Assembly (NCBI GenBank): GCA_016000195.1
Contig: JAECRO010000007.1
Coordinates: forward strand, 1-64,000
Direction: 5' to 3'
DNA length: 64,000 nt
Origin: Burkholderiales bacterium
Lineage (GTDB): Bacteria > Pseudomonadota > Gammaproteobacteria > Burkholderiales > Burkholderiaceae_C
A program made the translations under genes and the position numbers. Shown here one piece after another: positions 2,385-10,182 of the stretch. The notes below the pieces were generated by a model. The model was not told where the DNA came from. It saw nothing but the letters and a program-made list of their open reading frames with translations, and did not search any database. Positions within the stretch are counted from its first letter, which is position 1, and the number at the start of each line of letters is the position of its first letter.

Positions 2385-4280
2385 ATGACCTCTCCAGCTC
2401 CCTCCATAGCCGCTCCCACTGCCCCTGTCGCCGCCGACAAGGAAGCCCACAAGCCCAGCAATTTCCTGCGCCAGATCATCGAAAAAGACCTGGCCGAAGG
2501 CACTTACGCCAGCCGCCGCTGGGGTGGCAGTCCGGGCGACGCCGCCCACCATGCCGCCGGCCAGCCCGATGCGGCCAAGGTGCGCATGCGCTTTCCGCCC
2601 GAGCCCAACGGCTACCTGCATGTCGGCCACGCCAAAAGCATCTGCCTGAACTTTGGCCTGGCGCGCGACTACGGCGGCGTGTGCCACCTGCGCTTTGACG
2701 ACACCAATCCCGAAAAAGAAGACACCGAATACGTGGACAGCATCAAGGATGCCGTGCAGTGGCTGGGCTTTGACTGGCACAACCACGGCGAAACCAACCT
2801 CTACCAGGCCAGCGACTACTTTGATTTCATGTACCGCGCCGCCGAATACCTGATCGAAGCCGGCCACGCCTACGTCGATGAGCAAAGCGCCGAGGAAATG
2901 CGCCAGAACCGGGGCGACTTCGGCCACCCCGGCGCCGACAGCCCGTTCCGCAGCCGCACCCCGGCCGAAAACCTCGCCCGTTTCCGCGAAATGCGCGACG
3001 GGCAACTGCCAGATGGCGCCGCCGTGCTGCGCGCCAAAATCGACATGGCCAGCCCCAACATCAACCTGCGCGACCCGGCCATCTACCGCATCCGCCGCGC
3101 CCACCACCACAACACCGGCGACAAATGGTGCATCTACCCGATGTACACCTACGCGCACCCGATTGAAGACGCACTGGAGCAGATCACCCACAGCATCTGC
3201 ACGCTCGAATTCGAGGACCAGCGCCCGTTCTACGACTGGCTGCTCGACCGCCTGGCTGAACAGACGACATTGCCCGATGGGCAAGTGGTGGGCGGCCTGA
3301 TTGCCACGCCGCACCCGCGCCAGTACGAATTTGCCCGCCTCAACCTGACCTACGTGCTGACCAGCAAGCGCAAGCTGGCGCAACTGGTGAATGAAAACCG
3401 CGTCAGCGGCTGGGACGACCCGCGCATGCCCACCATCGTCGGACTGCGCCGGCGCGGCTACACGCCGGAAAGTCTGCAACTGTTCGCCGAACGCATCGGC
3501 GTGACCAAGAGCGACAGCTGGATCGACTACAGCACCTTGGAGGGCTGCCTGCGTGAAACCCTGGACGGCAGCGCGCCCCGCGCCATGGCCGTGCTCGACC
3601 CGGTCAAGCTCGTGCTGACCAACTGGGACGAAGTGATGGGCGCCGGCACGCTCGACGATTGCAGCGCGCCGATTCACCCGCACCACCCGGAACTGGGCAA
3701 GCGCGAATTCAAGATCGGCAAGGAAGTCTGGATTGACCGCAGCGACTACGAAGAAACCCCGCCCAAGGGCTTTTTCCGCCTGTTCCCGCCGCATGTGAAC
3801 GCCAGCAAGCAGGCCATGGCCGGCAGCAAGGTGCGCCTGAAATACGGCCACGTCATCGAATGCACCGGCGCGGTCAAGGACGCCGACGGCAAGGTCATCG
3901 AAGTCCACGCCACCTTGATTCCGGACACCAAGAGCGGCACGCCGGGCGCGGATTCGGTCAAGGTCAAGGGCGTGATCACCTGGGTCGGCGTGAACGATGC
4001 GGTGCCGGCGGAAGTGCGGCTGTATGAGCGACTGTTCAGGGAAGCGCAGCCCGAAGGCGGCGGCGTGGACTTCCTGACGAACCTGAATGCCGACAGCCTG
4101 AAAGTGATGACCGCCTACGTCGAGCCGTCACTGGCTGGCGGCGGCGCGATTGAAGCCAAGGCCGATGACAAGTTCCAGTTTGAGCGGCATGGGTATTTTG
4201 TGGCGGACCGGGTGGACCATGCGGCGGGGAAGCCGGTGTTTAATTTGGCGGTGGGGTTGAAGGATAGCTGGGGAAAGTGA
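2385..4280 (+). CDS. glnS: Glutamine--tRNA ligase
   Basis: Class I aminoacyl-tRNA synthetase charging tRNA-Gln in the cytoplasm. The 631-residue protein carries the HIGH-type motif PPEPNGYLHVGHAKS (71-85), FDDTNPEKE for ATP/tRNA binding, and a KMSKS-type loop LTSKRKL near residue 327. The C-terminal beta-barrel anticodon-binding region follows. It is longer than the E. coli enzyme because of an Ala/Pro-rich N-terminal extension and a small insertion around residues 46-66. The stop codon overlaps the next ATG (TGATG), so the foreign-looking cassette downstream may be translated from glnS message. No clear Shine-Dalgarno precedes the ATG. Confidence 0.97.
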   Translation: MTSPAPSIAAPTAPVAADKEAHKPSNFLRQIIEKDLAEGTYASRRWGGSPGDAAHHAAGQPDAAKVRMRFPPEPNGYLHVGHAKSICLNFGLARDYGGVCHLRFDDTNPEKEDTEYVDSIKDAVQWLGFDWHNHGETNLYQASDYFDFMYRAAEYLIEAGHAYVDEQSAEEMRQNRGDFGHPGADSPFRSRTPAENLARFREMRDGQLPDGAAVLRAKIDMASPNINLRDPAIYRIRRAHHHNTGDKWCIYPMYTYAHPIEDALEQITHSICTLEFEDQRPFYDWLLDRLAEQTTLPDGQVVGGLIATPHPRQYEFARLNLTYVLTSKRKLAQLVNENRVSGWDDPRMPTIVGLRRRGYTPESLQLFAERIGVTKSDSWIDYSTLEGCLRETLDGSAPRAMAVLDPVKLVLTNWDEVMGAGTLDDCSAPIHPHHPELGKREFKIGKEVWIDRSDYEETPPKGFFRLFPPHVNASKQAMAGSKVRLKYGHVIECTGAVKDADGKVIEVHATLIPDTKSGTPGADSVKVKGVITWVGVNDAVPAEVRLYERLFREAQPEGGGVDFLTNLNADSLKVMTAYVEPSLAGGGAIEAKADDKFQFERHGYFVADRVDHAAGKPVFNLAVGLKDSWGK

Positions 4281-5209
4281 TGGCAGATATTAAGAAAGAT
4301 AATATCTTGAAAAAAGATGTAGAAATCAGTACATTGAATGATCAACTTTTTCATGAAACCCCCAATACCGAAACAGAATGGCATGGAACTTCATCAACAG
4401 GAAAGCAATGGACTGTTTATTGTGGATCTTCCGAGGAGGTATTAAAAAAATTACCTGACTCAAGCATTCATTGCATCGTAACTTCGCCACCTTATTTTTG
4501 GCTTCGCGATTACGGGATGAATGGACAAATTGGACTTGAAGAATCAGTTAAAGACTATGTTGACGCCTTAAGCAATGTAATGGCAGAGGCATATCGGGTT
4601 TTGCGTAAAGACGGTGTACTTTTTCTGAATTTAGGAGATACATACTATTCAGGTAAAGGCAAGTCGCACGGCACCGATCGTAAAAGTGGAAAACGACGCT
4701 TTGGTTTACGTGCTGTAGATAAAAGTGGTGGACTAGGAATTGGGCTTCAACGCAAATCAATAATTGGAATACCGTGGCGCGTCGCTATTGAAATGTCAAG
4801 CAAAGGCTGGATTCTTAGGAGTCCTATCATTTGGCATCGTGAAAATTGTCTCCCAGAATCAGTTGCGGACCGCCCCAGCAGAAGTTATGAGAATCTTTTT
4901 ATGTTTGCTAAAGATAGAAAATACTTCTTCAACAAGCAACCACTTATTGATAAAAAAGTTGAAGAAGATATGTGGACAATTGCATCTAGACCAAAAACAC
5001 GTAGCGGTCTAGACACAGCACCCTTTCCAGATGAACTTGTTGCAAGATGCTTAGAAATAGGTTGCCCTCCAGAAGGGATAGTTCTTGATCCATTTCTGGG
5101 TAGTGGCACAACGGCTAGAGTAGCAGTAACGATGGGTTACTCAACAGTTGGTATCGACCTAAATCCTGAGTTCTGTCTTTACTCAGTCAGCAATCTCAGA
5201 AAGTTATAA
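4280..5209 (+). CDS. Beta-class DNA methyltransferase (N4-C or N6-A)
   Basis: A 309-residue site-specific DNA methyltransferase. The catalytic motif IV TSPPYFWLRDYG is near the N-terminus (68-79). The AdoMet-binding motif DPFLGSGTT is near the C-terminus (270-278), followed by GYSTVGIDLNPEF. This order is that of beta-class enzymes, which methylate the N4 of cytosine or N6 of adenine; SPPY does not settle which. The ATG overlaps the glnS TGA by one base (an in-frame GTG lies three bases upstream). Base composition changes abruptly to AT-rich here, as do codon choices (AAA, ATT, TTA), indicating horizontal acquisition. It is followed after two bases by the ATPase gene. It probably protects host DNA from the partner nuclease (inference). 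Confidence 0.9.
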   Translation: MADIKKDNILKKDVEISTLNDQLFHETPNTETEWHGTSSTGKQWTVYCGSSEEVLKKLPDSSIHCIVTSPPYFWLRDYGMNGQIGLEESVKDYVDALSNVMAEAYRVLRKDGVLFLNLGDTYYSGKGKSHGTDRKSGKRRFGLRAVDKSGGLGIGLQRKSIIGIPWRVAIEMSSKGWILRSPIIWHRENCLPESVADRPSRSYENLFMFAKDRKYFFNKQPLIDKKVEEDMWTIASRPKTRSGLDTAPFPDELVARCLEIGCPPEGIVLDPFLGSGTTARVAVTMGYSTVGIDLNPEFCLYSVSNLRKL

Positions 5210-5211
5210 AT

Positions 5212-7074
5212 ATGTATTTCACACCTTTCCAAATTGTCAATTCCATTCATGCATTGAGGGATATTCATCCATTTTATGGAATAACATTTCTAGCATGCAA
5301 AAAAGATGGCTTACCAGTCGGAAGTACCATTGTGTTCCCACTTGATGCAAAAACAGATAAGTTTCTTCAAACATACCATCATCTCAACCCACGATCAAGT
5401 GCATTTTTTCAGCCATTCAAGTCTAGCGACAGATCAAAAAAATGGGTTAAATCAGACTATTCAGCCAAAGGTCTTCAAGCAATAAATACCCAAACATTTG
5501 CACCAGCATTTATTCACGAAAGTGGATCAAGGGTGTGGGGCTGGGATTCAAATTACATCGAAATTCTAAGCAAAAAATTATTAAAAAAAGAAAAAATACC
5601 CGCCTTTGATTTAGCTGTTTGGCTTTACCGGAATCATGACTGGCCAATTGACACAAAAAAATCAGAAGTAATAGAAAAATTTATTTCAGATTTCAACTTA
5701 ACGCACAAAGAATTTGAATTTTTATTCAAAGATAATCTTTCCAACAACAACATCAACAACCTCGTTCAAGACTCTAAAGTAGATTGGAACGATTTAAGCT
5801 CGCTTCTCCCCTCCCCTCCAGATGCAGAACCAGATGGAGGAGGGACTCTTACATATCTAGAAACTAGAGGAATTGGACCTGCCGATATTTTTAAAATATA
5901 TCCAGCAAAAAGACTAACAATAATAACTGGAGACAACGGACTAGGAAAATCATTTTTACTGGAAACAGCATGGCTAGCATTAACAGGAAAATGGGCAGAC
6001 AAACCAATACACCCCAGAAGAGATTCAAAATATTCAAAATATAATAATGGTGAAATAATTTTTGAAATTGAAGGTGAGCGCTCGAAAGCCCAACGAAGAA
6101 CTACAACTTATGACTGGAAAAATCTTTCATGGCATTCACCCGACAAAAGACCAACCATGGCAGGTCTTACAATTTATGCTCGGGTTGATGGATCATTTGC
6201 AATCTGGGATCCAGCACGCGCGAACTCTAATTCAAAAACAACCGTTTTCACCAAAACTGAAACATGGGATGGACTACCAGGTCAAATTGAAGGTTTAATT
6301 AGAGACTGGGTGCGATGGCAAAATAATCCTGCAGGCGGCCAATTCAATAACTTTAAAGAAGTATTGGATATGCTTTCCCCCTCTGACTTAGGAAAACTAA
6401 CACCCGGCACAAGTATCAGAATACCAGATGACCCTAGAGAAATTCCAACACTCAAACATCCATATGGTGAAATCCCTATCACGCATGAGTCAGCTGGTGT
6501 ACGTAGAGTTATCACATTAGCTTATTTATTAGTATGGTCTTGGCATGAGCACCTTATAGCTGCCGAACTATCAAATACAGATGCACAACGAAAAATGGTT
6601 GTTCTAATTGATGAGATAGAAGCTCATCTCCACCCTCGATGGCAACGTACTCTGCTACCTGCTCTATTAAGAGTACGAGAGGTGCTATCACCATCATTGG
6701 ATGTACAGTACATAGTCGCGACTCACTCACCATTAGTTATGGCATCATCCGAAGCCATCTTCGAAGACCAAGAGGACAAGCTTTTTCATCTAGACATGCA
6801 AAAATCCGGTGAAATTGCACTCAAAGAAATACCTTTTATCAAATATGGTGACGTATCTGCATGGCTAACGTCTCCAGTATTTGAATTACGTCATGCTCGA
6901 TCAAGTGAAGCCGAAGCTGCGATTGAGGCAGCAAAATCACTTCAACTTGCAGAGAACATTAATAAATTGGCCGTTGAAAACGTTAATGCAAATTTGATTA
7001 AATACCTTGCCGCGGATGATAGGTTTTGGCCAAGATGGGTTAGCTTTGCTGAAAGATTTGGAGTAATTTCTTGA
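5212..7074 (+). CDS. AAA/ABC-type ATPase of a defence cassette (PtuA-like)
   Basis: A 620-residue cytosolic ATPase. Residues 1-215 form an N-terminal region I do not recognise, with an aromatic-rich segment FDLAVWLYRNHDWP at 132-145. The C-terminal part is an SMC/OLD/PtuA-like ATP-binding domain: Walker A GDNGLGKS (240-247), signature-like HESAGVRR (425-432), Walker B VVLIDEIEAHLHP (463-475) and ATHSPLVMAS (503-512). The two halves of the nucleotide site are separated by about 215 residues. It starts two bases after the methyltransferase, and its TGA overlaps the TTG start of the HNH gene. The pairing with HNH resembles Septu (PtuA/PtuB), where the ATPase complexes with and regulates the nuclease. 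AT-rich throughout. Confidence 0.85.
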   Translation: MYFTPFQIVNSIHALRDIHPFYGITFLACKKDGLPVGSTIVFPLDAKTDKFLQTYHHLNPRSSAFFQPFKSSDRSKKWVKSDYSAKGLQAINTQTFAPAFIHESGSRVWGWDSNYIEILSKKLLKKEKIPAFDLAVWLYRNHDWPIDTKKSEVIEKFISDFNLTHKEFEFLFKDNLSNNNINNLVQDSKVDWNDLSSLLPSPPDAEPDGGGTLTYLETRGIGPADIFKIYPAKRLTIITGDNGLGKSFLLETAWLALTGKWADKPIHPRRDSKYSKYNNGEIIFEIEGERSKAQRRTTTYDWKNLSWHSPDKRPTMAGLTIYARVDGSFAIWDPARANSNSKTTVFTKTETWDGLPGQIEGLIRDWVRWQNNPAGGQFNNFKEVLDMLSPSDLGKLTPGTSIRIPDDPREIPTLKHPYGEIPITHESAGVRRVITLAYLLVWSWHEHLIAAELSNTDAQRKMVVLIDEIEAHLHPRWQRTLLPALLRVREVLSPSLDVQYIVATHSPLVMASSEAIFEDQEDKLFHLDMQKSGEIALKEIPFIKYGDVSAWLTSPVFELRHARSSEAEAAIEAAKSLQLAENINKLAVENVNANLIKYLAADDRFWPRWVSFAERFGVIS

Positions 7075-7697
7075 TTCCAATAACACCTCAACCAGAACCT
7101 ATTGGATTTAACGCCAGTGTTCGCTTACCAGGCTCTAAATTTTTAGCAAAGACACCCCATCCATCTGCAAAAGAATTTCAAACCAACAACTACTGGAAGA
7201 ATTCAATTAATGATTTATATTTATCTTATAAAAAAATTTGCGCTTATAGTTCCGCCCCAATATGGCATACAGGCTCTGCAACAGTTGATCATTACTTAGC
7301 TAAATCAGTTAGGCCTGATTTAGCTTACGAGTGGAACAACTTTCGATTAGCAAGATTTAAATTAAATTACAACAAAGACATAAATGAGAAAGTTATTGAT
7401 CCATTTACCATTGAAGATGGATGGTTCCAAATTGACTTCCCAAGCTGTCTGATAAAGCCAGGCACAGGATTAAGTGATGCGGTTCATAAATCAGTAGTTG
7501 ATTCGATAAGAATTTTAAAACTGAACGATGATGATGAACTTGTTCAGGAACGTGCCACCAGAATGACAGAGTTCGCCGAAGGCGAAATACTTTTATCTTG
7601 GCTAGAAAAATATTACCCTCTACTAGCAAAAGAAATAGTAAGACAAGGAATACAAAATAACGCCAACAGCATATTTAAAACTCGATCTATCACATAA
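7071..7697 (+). CDS. HNH-type nuclease, PtuB-like
   Basis: A 208-residue protein. The central segment KKICAYSS (54-61), TVDHYLAKS (71-79), AYEWNNFRLA (85-94) and LNYNKDINEKVIDPF (98-112) follows the HNH beta-beta-alpha-metal layout seen in PtuB and related nucleases. His74 is the likely general base and Asn89/90 the structural residue. The usual CxxC zinc pair is reduced to CAYS, so the zinc knuckle may be absent. Translation most likely starts at TTG 7071, overlapping the ATPase stop by four bases (TTGA); no better start is nearby. It is the last AT-rich gene, and composition returns to GC-rich within 40 bases after it. Presumed effector of the cassette. Confidence 0.78.
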   Translation: MIPITPQPEPIGFNASVRLPGSKFLAKTPHPSAKEFQTNNYWKNSINDLYLSYKKICAYSSAPIWHTGSATVDHYLAKSVRPDLAYEWNNFRLARFKLNYNKDINEKVIDPFTIEDGWFQIDFPSCLIKPGTGLSDAVHKSVVDSIRILKLNDDDELVQERATRMTEFAEGEILLSWLEKYYPLLAKEIVRQGIQNNANSIFKTRSIT

Positions 7698-7736
7698 AAT
7701 TTGACTCATAATTTATCTAAACAATAAATCATTTAA

Positions 7737-8453
7737 ATGGCCAAGTTCCTAAACACCAGCGCAACCAACTATTTCCTTGAAGAGCTGATCAAGGGCGCTG
7801 CAGACCGATTAATCCTGATCAGCCCCTTCCTCAAGCTCAACGACCGGATGAAGGAATTGCTGGCGGACAAGAACCGGCTGAAGATCGACGTTCGCATTGT
7901 TTATGGCAAAAGCGAGTTGCAGCCGCAGGAAACCGAATGGCTGAGCGGCCTGACGTATATCCGAACCAGCTTTTGCAAGAACCTGCATGCCAAGTGCTAC
8001 ATGAACGAGAACATGTGCATCGTCACCAGCCTGAACCTGTACGAGTTCAGCCAGGTGAACAACAACGAAATGGGCATCCTCATCCTGCGCGACGAAGATG
8101 GCCAGCTTTACAAAGACGCCTACGAGGAAGCCCAGCGCATCATCCGCATCAGCGACGAGATTCGCATTTCGCTCGAACGCGTGGCCATCGAGGCCGAAAC
8201 GCCCAGCCGCAACGACGACCGGGCGGCAGAAGCACCGAATCCGGAAGGCAAGCTGGCTTCCTCGAAAATCGCGCAAAAGCTGGGTTTGAAAACCGGGCTG
8301 TTTCTGGAACGCGCCGCCCAGCAGGGTTATCTGGCGTTTGACAACGGCCAGTTTTTCCTGAGCCCCAAGGGCGAAAAGGTCGGCGTGGAGTTCGTCGCCA
8401 AGTCGCGTTTCGGCCCCTACTTCCTGTGGCCGCAGGATTTTTACCTGCTCTGA
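7737..8453 (+). CDS. Phospholipase D-fold protein (single HxK motif)
   Basis: A 238-residue protein with one PLD-type active-site motif: H84-A-K86 (LHAKCYM), with Glu91 where the family usually has Asp, then TSLN (97-100) in the GSxN position. Single-motif PLD proteins act as dimers and include nucleases of the Nuc/BfiI type, so DNA or RNA cleavage is plausible. Residues about 150-238 form a C-terminal region with a helix-turn-helix-like GKLASSKIAQKLGLKTGLFLERA. Composition is GC-rich, unlike the preceding cassette. Its TGA overlaps the ATG of the zeta-like gene, so the two are probably co-translated. The substrate is unknown. Confidence 0.78.
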   Translation: MAKFLNTSATNYFLEELIKGAADRLILISPFLKLNDRMKELLADKNRLKIDVRIVYGKSELQPQETEWLSGLTYIRTSFCKNLHAKCYMNENMCIVTSLNLYEFSQVNNNEMGILILRDEDGQLYKDAYEEAQRIIRISDEIRISLERVAIEAETPSRNDDRAAEAPNPEGKLASSKIAQKLGLKTGLFLERAAQQGYLAFDNGQFFLSPKGEKVGVEFVAKSRFGPYFLWPQDFYLL

Positions 8454-9049
8454 TGACCAACACACCCCAATCCTCTCCCCGTGTCGTCGTCTTCGCCGGC
8501 CCCAACGGCGCGGGCAAATCGACGCATGCCGATGCGATTCTGGCCGCGCTGGGCATTGAAACCTTTGTCAACGCCGACTACATCGCACGCGGCCTGTCCG
8601 GGCGCCATACCGATGCCGTCGCGTTCGAGGCGGGCCGCATCATGCTCAGGCGCTTGCGGCAACTGGGCGAAGCCAGGGCCGATTTTGCTTTTGAATCCAC
8701 GCTGTCAAGCCGCTCCTTTGCCCACTTCCTGCACGGTCTGAAGGCCAAAGGTTACGCGGTCGCCATCTATTATTTTTCGCTGGCCAGCGCCCAGTTGGCG
8801 GTTCGCCGCGTCAAGCTGCGCGTGGCCCTGGGCGGGCATGATGTGCCGGCGGATGTGGTCAAGCGGCGATTTGGCCGCAGCCTGCAGAATTTCTTTCAGC
8901 TCTACGTTCCATTGGCCGATGAATGGACGCTGTTCGACAACTCATCGGCAACCCAGGCGCTGCCGGTAGCGGCACGCTATGCCAATCAACTGACCGTGAC
9001 GGAGCCCGCAACATGGCACAAACTGCAAAAACTCAGCAAAACCGCCTGA
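8453..9049 (+). CDS. Zeta-toxin-like P-loop kinase
   Basis: A 198-residue P-loop protein of the zeta/PezT-like family. Walker A GPNGAGKST is at 16-24, followed by FVNADYIARGLSG, the position of the Asn-Ala-Asp that in zeta toxins contacts UDP-N-acetylglucosamine. Two arginine-rich stretches (RRVKLRVALGGHDVP, VVKRRFGRSLQNFF) would supply phosphate-contacting residues. Zeta toxins phosphorylate UDP-GlcNAc, but many stand-alone chromosomal relatives have unproven substrates. The ATG at 8453 overlaps the upstream stop. No epsilon/PezA antitoxin precedes it; the only candidate partner is the small ORF overlapping its 3' end. Confidence 0.8.
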   Translation: MTNTPQSSPRVVVFAGPNGAGKSTHADAILAALGIETFVNADYIARGLSGRHTDAVAFEAGRIMLRRLRQLGEARADFAFESTLSSRSFAHFLHGLKAKGYAVAIYYFSLASAQLAVRRVKLRVALGGHDVPADVVKRRFGRSLQNFFQLYVPLADEWTLFDNSSATQALPVAARYANQLTVTEPATWHKLQKLSKTA

Positions 9050-9183: not shown

Positions 9184-9309
9184 AATTTTCCGTCTCCGGG
9201 TTTGCGCCCATCCAGAATCGGAAGCACTTTTTTCTCTTTCACATGCTGTTTCCGCCCTTTCCGGTATTTGGGTCAAAAAAACCACTTCGCTGAACAGCCA
9301 TTAAATCCC

Positions 9310-10182
9310 ATGCCTCGTCCCCAAACCATCCAAATCTTCCTCCCTGCTGGCGACCCGCGTGGCATGCGCGTGGCTGAAATCACGACACGCATCATTCGCG
9401 TCATCGAAGTGCCGCGCAGCCAGCTTGGCGAGTTCATCAAGACGCCGGAAGCGCAGCAGGTGGGCGTGTATTTTTTGCTGGGCGAGTTGTCGGAAGTTGG
9501 CTTGCCGCGTGTGTACATCGGCCAGTCCGGCAGCGTCGGCACCCGGCTGGTGCAGCACAACCAGAGCAAGGACTTCTGGAACCGGGTGATGGTGGTGATC
9601 TCTCTGACAAATAGCATGACGCAAACGCATGCGCTGTTTCTGGAGTGGTTTGCGATTTCAGAGGCCACCAAGGCCGGGCGCTACAGCCTGGAGAACGGCA
9701 ACGCTGGCGCACGGCCCCACACGCCCGCGCCGCTGGAGGCGGACTGCCATGAAATTCATGAAACCGCCGCCACCCTGCTGGCCACGCTGGGCCAGCCGAT
9801 TTTCGAGCCGCTGACGAATGCGCCGGCTTTTCCGGGCGAGAAGAAAGAGCTGTTCTATTGCAAGAGCTCGGGCGCCGATGGCGTGGGCGAGTACACGACC
9901 GAAGGCTTTGTGGTGCGCAAAGGGTCACGCGGGCGGGTGGAAAACGTGGCATCTATTCAGGGCACATCGAATGAGCGTTTTCGCAATCAACTGATCACCG
10001 AGGGCATCATGGCCGCTCAAGACAACATGCTGGTTTTTGCCCGTGACCATCTCTTCGCCAGCCCCAGCATGGCTGCCATAGCGCTCATGGGCCGCTCGGC
10101 CAATGGCTGGCTGGAATGGAAAAACCCGCAGGGCAAGACGCTGGACGAGGTGAAGCGCCAGTCGGTAACCGTGACGATCTGA
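9310..10182 (+). CDS. GIY-YIG nuclease family protein with DUF4357 domain
   Basis: A 290-residue protein. Residues about 50-140 form a GIY-YIG-like fold: VGVYFLLGE (GIY position), RVYIGQSGSVGTRLVQH (YIG plus Arg) and a downstream acidic residue in FLEW. The C-terminal part (GFVVRKGSRGRVEN...GWLEWKNPQGKTLDE) matches DUF4357, a domain frequently fused to GIY-YIG or restriction-related proteins. The GIY motif is degenerate (GVYF). The start ATG 9310 was chosen because upstream residues (CCFRPFRYLGQ) look non-coding. It sits among defence-like genes; a DNA-cleaving role is probable but unproven. Confidence 0.78.
   Translation: MPRPQTIQIFLPAGDPRGMRVAEITTRIIRVIEVPRSQLGEFIKTPEAQQVGVYFLLGELSEVGLPRVYIGQSGSVGTRLVQHNQSKDFWNRVMVVISLTNSMTQTHALFLEWFAISEATKAGRYSLENGNAGARPHTPAPLEADCHEIHETAATLLATLGQPIFEPLTNAPAFPGEKKELFYCKSSGADGVGEYTTEGFVVRKGSRGRVENVASIQGTSNERFRNQLITEGIMAAQDNMLVFARDHLFASPSMAAIALMGRSANGWLEWKNPQGKTLDEVKRQSVTVTI

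Follow-up and report, generated by a model that had tools for sequence, protein, structure and literature searches.

What does a DNA methyltransferase do at the head of a Septu-like operon? The question is raised by three adjoining genes of a Burkholderiales bacterium (contig JAECRO010000007.1, assembly GCA_016000195.1), at positions 4280 to 7697 of the 64,000-nucleotide stretch that was analysed, hereafter the window. These genes, which we call the cassette, encode a DNA methyltransferase, a PtuA-type ATPase with an additional N-terminal domain (NTD) and a PtuB-type HNH protein. They form a conserved operon. In the loci found, the NTD and the methyltransferase invariably accompany each other, and the ATPase core and the HNH protein are also found without both. 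Our best reading, to which we give slightly better than even credence, is a Septu variant acting like the LlaJI restriction-modification system: the NTD would read an unmethylated site, the ATPase would gate the response and the HNH protein would cut.

The features of the locus are the following.

2385 to 4280, plus strand: glnS (glutaminyl-tRNA synthetase), the host gene whose stop codon marks the start of the cassette (open reading frame; same-genus matches).
4280 to 5209, plus strand: DNA methyltransferase of the N4/N6 family (PF01555; PADLOC MTase_II PDLC03387).
5212 to 5841, plus strand: NTD of the ATPase, residues 1-210, a putative DNA-reading domain (within PADLOC PDLC00270).
5842 to 7074, plus strand: PtuA-type ATPase core (AAA_21; PtuA PDLC00307; Foldseek).
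7071 to 7697, plus strand: PtuB-type HNH protein (PADLOC PtuB PDLC00348).
7698 to 7736, no strand: AT-rich tail of 39 bases, right boundary of the block (sequence).
7737 to 8453, plus strand: phospholipase D (PLD)-like gene (PLDc_2), the resident right neighbour of the insertion site (PF13091, E=6e-7; directly behind glnS in the same-genus genome G771).

The three cassette genes follow glnS on the same strand and are tightly packed. The TGA of glnS (4278-4280) shares base 4280 with the ATG of the methyltransferase gene in a TGATG junction, two bases separate the methyltransferase and ATPase genes, and the ATPase stop overlaps the TTG start of the HNH gene at 7071 as TTGA. Coordinates and junctions are those given in an earlier reading of the bare sequence (the sequence-only reading). 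As this reading also claimed, an AT-rich block stands in GC-rich surroundings and ends within 40 bases of the HNH gene. The guanine-plus-cytosine (GC) content is 0.64 in glnS, 0.40, 0.39 and 0.36 in the three cassette genes and 0.56 in the PLD-like gene, whose start at 7737 lies 40 bases past the HNH stop. At third codon positions, the corresponding values are 0.83, then 0.30, 0.27 and 0.27, then 0.79. The cassette, at 36-40% GC, is thus embedded in a window of 63% GC.

What are the three proteins? The identities proposed in the sequence-only reading stand. The methyltransferase belongs to N6_N4_Mtase PF01555 (E=2.7e-41) and scores 273.8 bits against PADLOC MTase_II PDLC03387. Its TSPPY motif (residues 68-72, 4481-4495) lies ahead of DPFLGSGTT (residues 270-278, 5087-5113), which we take to be the beta-class order. 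In the alignment it is 73% identical to the enzyme of locus L002 and 62% to that of L003. Its matches in the PDB span both N4-methylcytosine and N6-methyladenine enzymes.

The PADLOC PtuA model PDLC00270 matches the ATPase over its full length (residues 1-618, 823 bits), and all six ATPases that were scanned with it gave a match. The core of the cassette ATPase is recognised by AAA_21 (E=1.6e-16) and by PtuA PDLC00307 (478 bits); the protein is AAA_21/AAA_15 and PtuA, not AAA_5. A Foldseek search with the ATPase model gave PtuA chains of Septu and retron I-A as top matches. Invariant columns of the alignment contain ITGDNGLGK (5923-5949), which we take to be the Walker A motif, DE at residues 467-468 (6610-6615), presumably the acidic pair, and H505 (6724-6726). 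The N-terminal region had been described as unrecognised. This is correct for Pfam, where a scan found no family for the NTD, and incorrect for PADLOC, since the NTD alone scores 218.7 bits in PDLC00270. A tblastn search of plasmids with the NTD gave no match. The HNH protein scores 206 bits against PADLOC PtuB PDLC00348 (E=8.2e-62). Both the ATPase with its NTD and the HNH protein therefore fall into families that PADLOC already assigns to Septu. In the HNH protein, D73-H74 is encoded at 7287-7292 and N90 at 7338-7340, and H74 and N90 are invariant across eight aligned HNH proteins. Their spacing is like that of H75 and N91 in PtuB of Septu EcB88, two residues whose change abolished immunity according to the accessible part of that study (PMC13096335).

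Does the order of the three genes recur? With the ATPase as query, a scan of GTDB contigs gave two relatives, one in Methylococcales (55%) and one in Acidobacteriaceae (46%). In both, the methyltransferase gene stands directly before the ATPase gene and the HNH gene directly after it, with zero gap or 4-base overlaps. Scans of viral contigs added the NTD-bearing loci L010 and L013, and genome searches added those of G374, G863 and G1214. The trio is thus present in the two lineages and in five further loci, with the reservation that the L013 contig ends at the ATPase. In the genome searches, the ATPase was found in 16 of 398 genomes (with the NTD in G000 and G374), in 4 of 385 (with the NTD in G374 and G863), in 3 of 300 (with the NTD in G000 and G1214) and in 2 of 369 (G000 and one genome with the core only).

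We compared the eight NTD-bearing loci (the window, L002, L003, L010, L013, L070, L071 and L144) with 28 loci whose ATPase lacks the NTD (27 distinct ones, L011 and L012 being identical). Plasmid matches H3 and H6-H15 stayed outside this comparison; H6-H15 cover 14-31% of the query. The methyltransferase gene is next upstream in all eight NTD loci, either overlapping the ATPase gene, by 23 bases at most, or leaving a gap of up to 56 bases, and the HNH gene is next downstream in seven, that is, in every locus with enough contig. A methyltransferase is found in none of the 28 NTD-less loci, with 2.1-8.6 kb of upstream DNA covered, and a motif check near these loci revealed no other DNA methyltransferase. 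The HNH gene is present in 24 of them and missing in L011, L012, L087 and L089 (L087 is cut by the contig end). The methyltransferase is thus tied to the NTD rather than to Septu at large. The three-part system that the sequence-only reading had proposed is real, as relatives of its three proteins do co-occur.

In a tree of the ATPase core (33 rows; L012, L087 and L089 left out), the eight NTD loci form one clade with a support of 98/97, found in 98% of bootstrap trees. Core identity is 40-59% among seven of the eight. The pair of methyltransferase and NTD looks to have been gained once, or lost once, and then kept together. These data bear on a first alternative, in which an ordinary Septu system is triggered by a phage cue and the methyltransferase travels along or serves another purpose. 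The NTD-less loci, where the ATPase family does without a methyltransferase and mostly keeps the HNH gene, agree with such a scheme. We nevertheless consider it improbable, because the NTD loci have kept the methyltransferase in its upstream place, with the spacings given above, despite deep divergence. As for a special co-evolution of methyltransferase and NTD, the mirror-tree value (0.58, versus 0.51 for methyltransferase and core and 0.93 for NTD and core; 21 pairs) leads us to make no claim.

Some of the compared loci have particular surroundings. In L010, the methyltransferase gene is directly preceded by an HTH_3 gene, in what we take to be the place of a restriction controller gene, a point in favour of the LlaJI-like reading; the open reading frame ahead of the HTH_3 gene is presumably recombinase-like. 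Region 101-2961 of L010 resembles a small mobile element that carries a controller-type gene. Close behind the G1214 cassette, L144 has an open reading frame (4054-5448) that we take to be transposase-like. On the core-only side, L005 (1504-3566, the same place as L089) encodes a PtuA-type ATPase with no HNH gene detected. The next open reading frame is presumably FRG-like, and this ATPase possibly has a different effector partner.

How does the cassette relate to known systems? It contains the Septu core, namely a PtuA-family ATPase and an adjoining PtuB-family HNH protein with the H and N residues, and it shares these families and their gene order with Septu type I (PtuA-PtuB). It differs from Septu type I by the NTD on the ATPase and by the methyltransferase as first gene. 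Whereas type I consists of ptuA and ptuB only, the cassette branch has more, and we file the cassette as a variant because the methyltransferase is next upstream in every NTD locus. Septu type II carries a reverse transcriptase with PtuA-PtuB, as stated in the accessible sections of the PADLOC paper (PMC8565338). This type, or retron type I-A, has in common with the cassette a set of three genes in which a nucleic-acid enzyme heads PtuA-PtuB (PMC8565338), but a methyltransferase stands in the cassette where the reverse transcriptase stands there. The replacement had been put forward in the sequence-only reading. It applies to the NTD branch only and not to Septu at large, as the NTD-less loci have no methyltransferase. 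No reverse transcriptase was found among the five main open reading frames of 4280-9049, a search that did not look for msr-msd or multicopy single-stranded DNA (msDNA). The NCBIfam models for retron Ec78 score far below their cut-offs (PtuA 59.8 of 500, PtuB 36.5 of 150). The same sections of the PADLOC paper place Hma, composed of a helicase, an m5C (5-methylcytosine) methyltransferase and an ATPase, often near Septu type I (PMC8565338); Hma is a separate three-gene system made of other proteins.

LlaJI offers another comparison. In the part of its description available to us, LlaJI has two 5-methylcytosine methyltransferases and restricts unmethylated DNA; specificity lies with the McrB-like subunit R1 alone, and cleavage is ascribed to R2, which has a PD-D/EXK motif (PMC1459862). 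LlaJI and the cassette both combine a methyltransferase, an NTPase with an N-terminal half of its own, which provides specificity in LlaJI, and a separate nuclease (PMC1459862). However, the cassette NTPase is of the PtuA type rather than the McrB type, and its nuclease is HNH rather than PD-(D/E)XK. A methyltransferase, which would be the cognate one, is part of the conserved operon. There are no McrB-like and McrC-like subunits, the third gene being PtuB and not PF10117, and for this reason we do not count the cassette as a member of LlaJI. On balance, our analysis rather favours a new Septu-core variant that resembles LlaJI restriction-modification.

In such a system, the methyltransferase would mark one DNA site in the host chromosome. 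The NTD of the PtuA-type ATPase, as the specificity part, would read the same site when unmarked. Binding to the site would activate, in an ATP-dependent manner, the complex that PtuA forms with the PtuB HNH nuclease and, by analogy with Septu and LlaJI, the activated nuclease would degrade unmarked foreign DNA.

Is the association of methyltransferase and NTD confined to PtuA-type ATPases? The nearest plasmid methyltransferases (H17-H20, 45-50% identity) head operons made of the methyltransferase, an AAA family ATPase and a third gene; gene context was read in 7 of the 175 plasmid records with a methyltransferase match. Two viral contigs (L055 and L056) show the same plan, methyltransferase first. 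Six such operons (L046-L049, L055 and L056) were scanned; the ATPase is AAA_5 in every one, and in five of them (L047, L048, L049, L055 and L056) the third gene is McrBC PF10117. These five have a methyltransferase of the cassette family in first place (45-47% identity for L047-L049) and differ from the cassette by the AAA_5 ATPase, whose N-terminus gives a weak profile match to the NTD, and by McrC. No McrC was found in the L046 operon, carried by a Mycobacterium paragordonae plasmid. For its third protein (669 residues), possibly a nuclease not yet recognised, neither Pfam nor PADLOC gave a match. This Mycobacterium plasmid operon of methyltransferase, AAA_5 ATPase and 669-residue protein is seen at 3848-6792 of L046 and at 2110-4119 of L146.

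The NTD matches the N-terminus of the L046 ATPase with E=3.8e-5 in HMMER (among nine sequences) and, in hhalign, with a probability of 91 and a score of 48.1 over 167 columns. As controls, the best of 200 shuffles scored 19.9 and the reversed sequence 14.2. With the five McrC-linked N-termini taken together, hhalign gave a probability of 35 and a score of 32.8, against a maximum of 23.3 in 200 shuffles; the scores of five unrelated profiles were 12.0-16.6. In the methyltransferase tree, which leaves out L017, the main cassette group has L046 as its sister (89/96), and the McrC-linked enzymes are further off. At moderate strength, sequence comparison suggests that the NTD is a remote homologue of the N-terminus of the L046 AAA+ ATPase. 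The link of the NTD to McrBC proper is weaker than that to AAA+ ATPases. Because of the NTD-L046 match and the methyltransferase tree, methyltransferase and NTD seem to have stayed associated while the ATPase changed. The L046 N-terminus retrieved itself alone from plasmids and nothing from phages, and the whole L046 ATPase had no match in IMG/VR. A joint profile of the NTD and L046 found G000 and G374 only in the 398 genomes of the phylum, with no further architecture. A wider idea, for which we see not quite an even chance, is that methyltransferase and reading domain make up a portable specificity unit. This unit would have been combined with NTP-driven engines of unrelated kinds, AAA+ (McrB-like) and PtuA-PtuB, and in the latter case would turn Septu, regarded until now as phage-sensing, into sequence-specific, methylation-gated restriction.

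The weak similarity to ATPase N-termini from McrC operons could also point to modification-dependent (type IV-like) restriction, the NTD reading a modified base as does McrB of E. coli. We hold this to be very improbable. With a linked methyltransferase, the host's own DNA would become a target unless the modification that is read is a different one, and LlaJI shows that McrB-like proteins are able to restrict unmethylated DNA, within the accessible part of its description (PMC1459862).

Related methyltransferases are found in further settings. XcyI-type enzymes (Pac25I and that of a Xanthomonas plasmid) are more distant cousins in the tree; they belong to one wider family with the cassette enzyme (39-41% identity), but their partner is a restriction enzyme of the XcyI family. 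The XcyI site, which we take to be CCCGGG, is not transferable to the cassette. On viral contigs L014, L015 and L016 (about 6001-6760), methyltransferases of 48-49% identity occur, with no cassette-family ATPase or HNH gene detected in the stretch covered. Such phage methyltransferases could protect against systems like the cassette.

Would the HNH protein act on DNA? PtuAB of Septu is known for DNA degradation, and PtuAB of retron-Eco7 depletes tRNA-Tyr in abortive infection, according to the accessible portion of one report (PMC11555353). Likewise, the accessible part of another describes cleavage of tRNA-Tyr by PtuAB of Septu EcB88 (PMC13096335). This action on tRNA-Tyr, set against the DNA degradation by Septu, keeps serious a different explanation, a guarded suicide in which the methyltransferase or its mark silences PtuAB. 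If a phage blocked or diluted the mark, PtuAB would hit either a host target, for instance tRNA, or DNA at large, and the infection would be aborted. The silencing would parallel that of retron-Septu, as msDNA locks and releases PtuAB in Ec83 according to the relevant lines of a review (PMC12948488), and the cassette HNH protein is indeed a PtuB family member. We judge this explanation unlikely, yet well worth keeping in view: the remote relative of the NTD, located on an AAA+ ATPase beside a related methyltransferase, suits site reading better than silencing, and more distant members of the methyltransferase family adjoin XcyI restriction genes.

Several observations weigh against the LlaJI-like reading that we prefer. 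The cassette HNH protein need not cut DNA, since the PtuAB of retron-Eco7 and EcB88, in the portions of the reports cited above, act on tRNA-Tyr. The eight-versus-zero count does not represent eight independent events, because one clade means one origin. The structural model of the NTD has a mean predicted local distance difference test (pLDDT) score of 72, with residues 59-94 below 50, and its best fold E-value is 1.3, with no confident match. The five McrC-linked N-termini match the NTD weakly, and the L046 N-terminus does not match these five (score 14.7). L046 is moreover a long branch in the methyltransferase tree, and as its third gene matches no Pfam or PADLOC family, its engine may be other than McrBC. 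The methyltransferases of L019/L071 and L070 are 32-41% identical to the other cassette ones and fall outside the main tree group, although a single clade is not rejected by the approximately unbiased test (p-AU 0.236). Finally, a clear HTH gene before the methyltransferase is seen in L010 only, with a weak one in L002 (E=0.03); the remaining loci were not individually examined. Separately, a swap of the methyltransferase in L071/L070 is hinted at by the tree and was not accepted (p-AU 0.236, long branches meet).

How did the cassette come to lie behind glnS? We take the name glnS from the sequence-only reading and from our own reading of the sequence; the last 260 residues have same-genus matches with 67-98% identity over the full or near-full stretch. 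In the same-genus genome G771, glnS is followed 70 bases on by the PLD-like gene with no gene between, which represents the empty site. This supports the earlier claim that the module moved as a unit. No telling flanking repeats marking transposition were found around the cassette. A glnS match was obtained in 36 of 41 genomes (own included), and 20 same-genus regions were read (L120-L139). In five of these, G771 included, the PLD-like gene lies downstream of glnS, the cargo between the two being different or absent. Six regions have one or more additional, truncated copies of the glnS 3' end further downstream (four copies in G754), and in 12 the GC content of the 1.5 kb that follow glnS is lower than that of the glnS end by 10 points or more. 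Seven of ten chosen cargo proteins have a PADLOC match (E<1e-5) and three have none; the matches are a reverse transcriptase, AbiU, two AriA/OLD-like proteins, DpdB, PDC-M38A and one weak AAA match. In this genus, cargo is found repeatedly at the 3' end of glnS, and in several regions it is defence-like. In several cargo open reading frames, the earliest potential start falls on the glnS stop codon or spans it; riding on this stop is therefore a habit of the site, not of the cassette.

From the TGATG overlap, it is plausible that the cassette borrows glnS transcription and translation. A promoter scan of 3900-7900 gave 5 matches versus 9.0 expected by shuffling, with no sign of a promoter of the cassette's own, though such a scan could miss one. 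The cargo and truncated glnS tails that gather at this site in the genus would also suit a window copy that is a mere passenger, not expressed or inactive. We find this most improbable, as the three frames are open with conserved motifs and the glnS junction could give transcription.

To the right of the cassette, relatives of the PLD-like gene are present in 7 of 60 other same-genus genomes. Six are 78-97% identical, and in G792 the gene is split into two pieces (80 and 67%). The PLD-like gene (7737-8453) shows weak similarity to DrmC. Directly behind it, 8426-9049 encodes a Zeta-toxin/AAA_33-like kinase (PF06414, E=7.3e-12), possibly a toxin. Further on (about 9262-10182) lies a gene for a protein with DUF4357 and a trace of GIY-YIG, with look-alikes, found by eye, in the glnS cargo of G765, G775 and G774.

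A Septu variant with a methyltransferase is unnamed in the accessible sections of the PADLOC paper (PMC8565338), and no report of a methyltransferase-PtuA-PtuB operon was found among the papers listed in searches of the open-licence PubMed Central literature. OLD-ABC ATPases are coupled with various endonucleases in restriction-modification-like systems, as mentioned in the accessible part of PMC12839542, which cites Krishnan et al. 2020. An earlier description of cassette-like operons in Krishnan et al. 2020 is possible.

If the LlaJI-like reading is true, the cassette would be a Septu with a defined and findable trigger, an unmethylated motif that could be read from long-read methylation data. 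To our knowledge, the trigger of Septu is poorly understood outside retrons. For defence-finding tools a simple rule would follow, unstated in the accessible sections of the PADLOC paper (PMC8565338): where PtuA carries the NTD, look for a methyltransferase. Recognition units would then move between AAA+ and PtuA-type engines.

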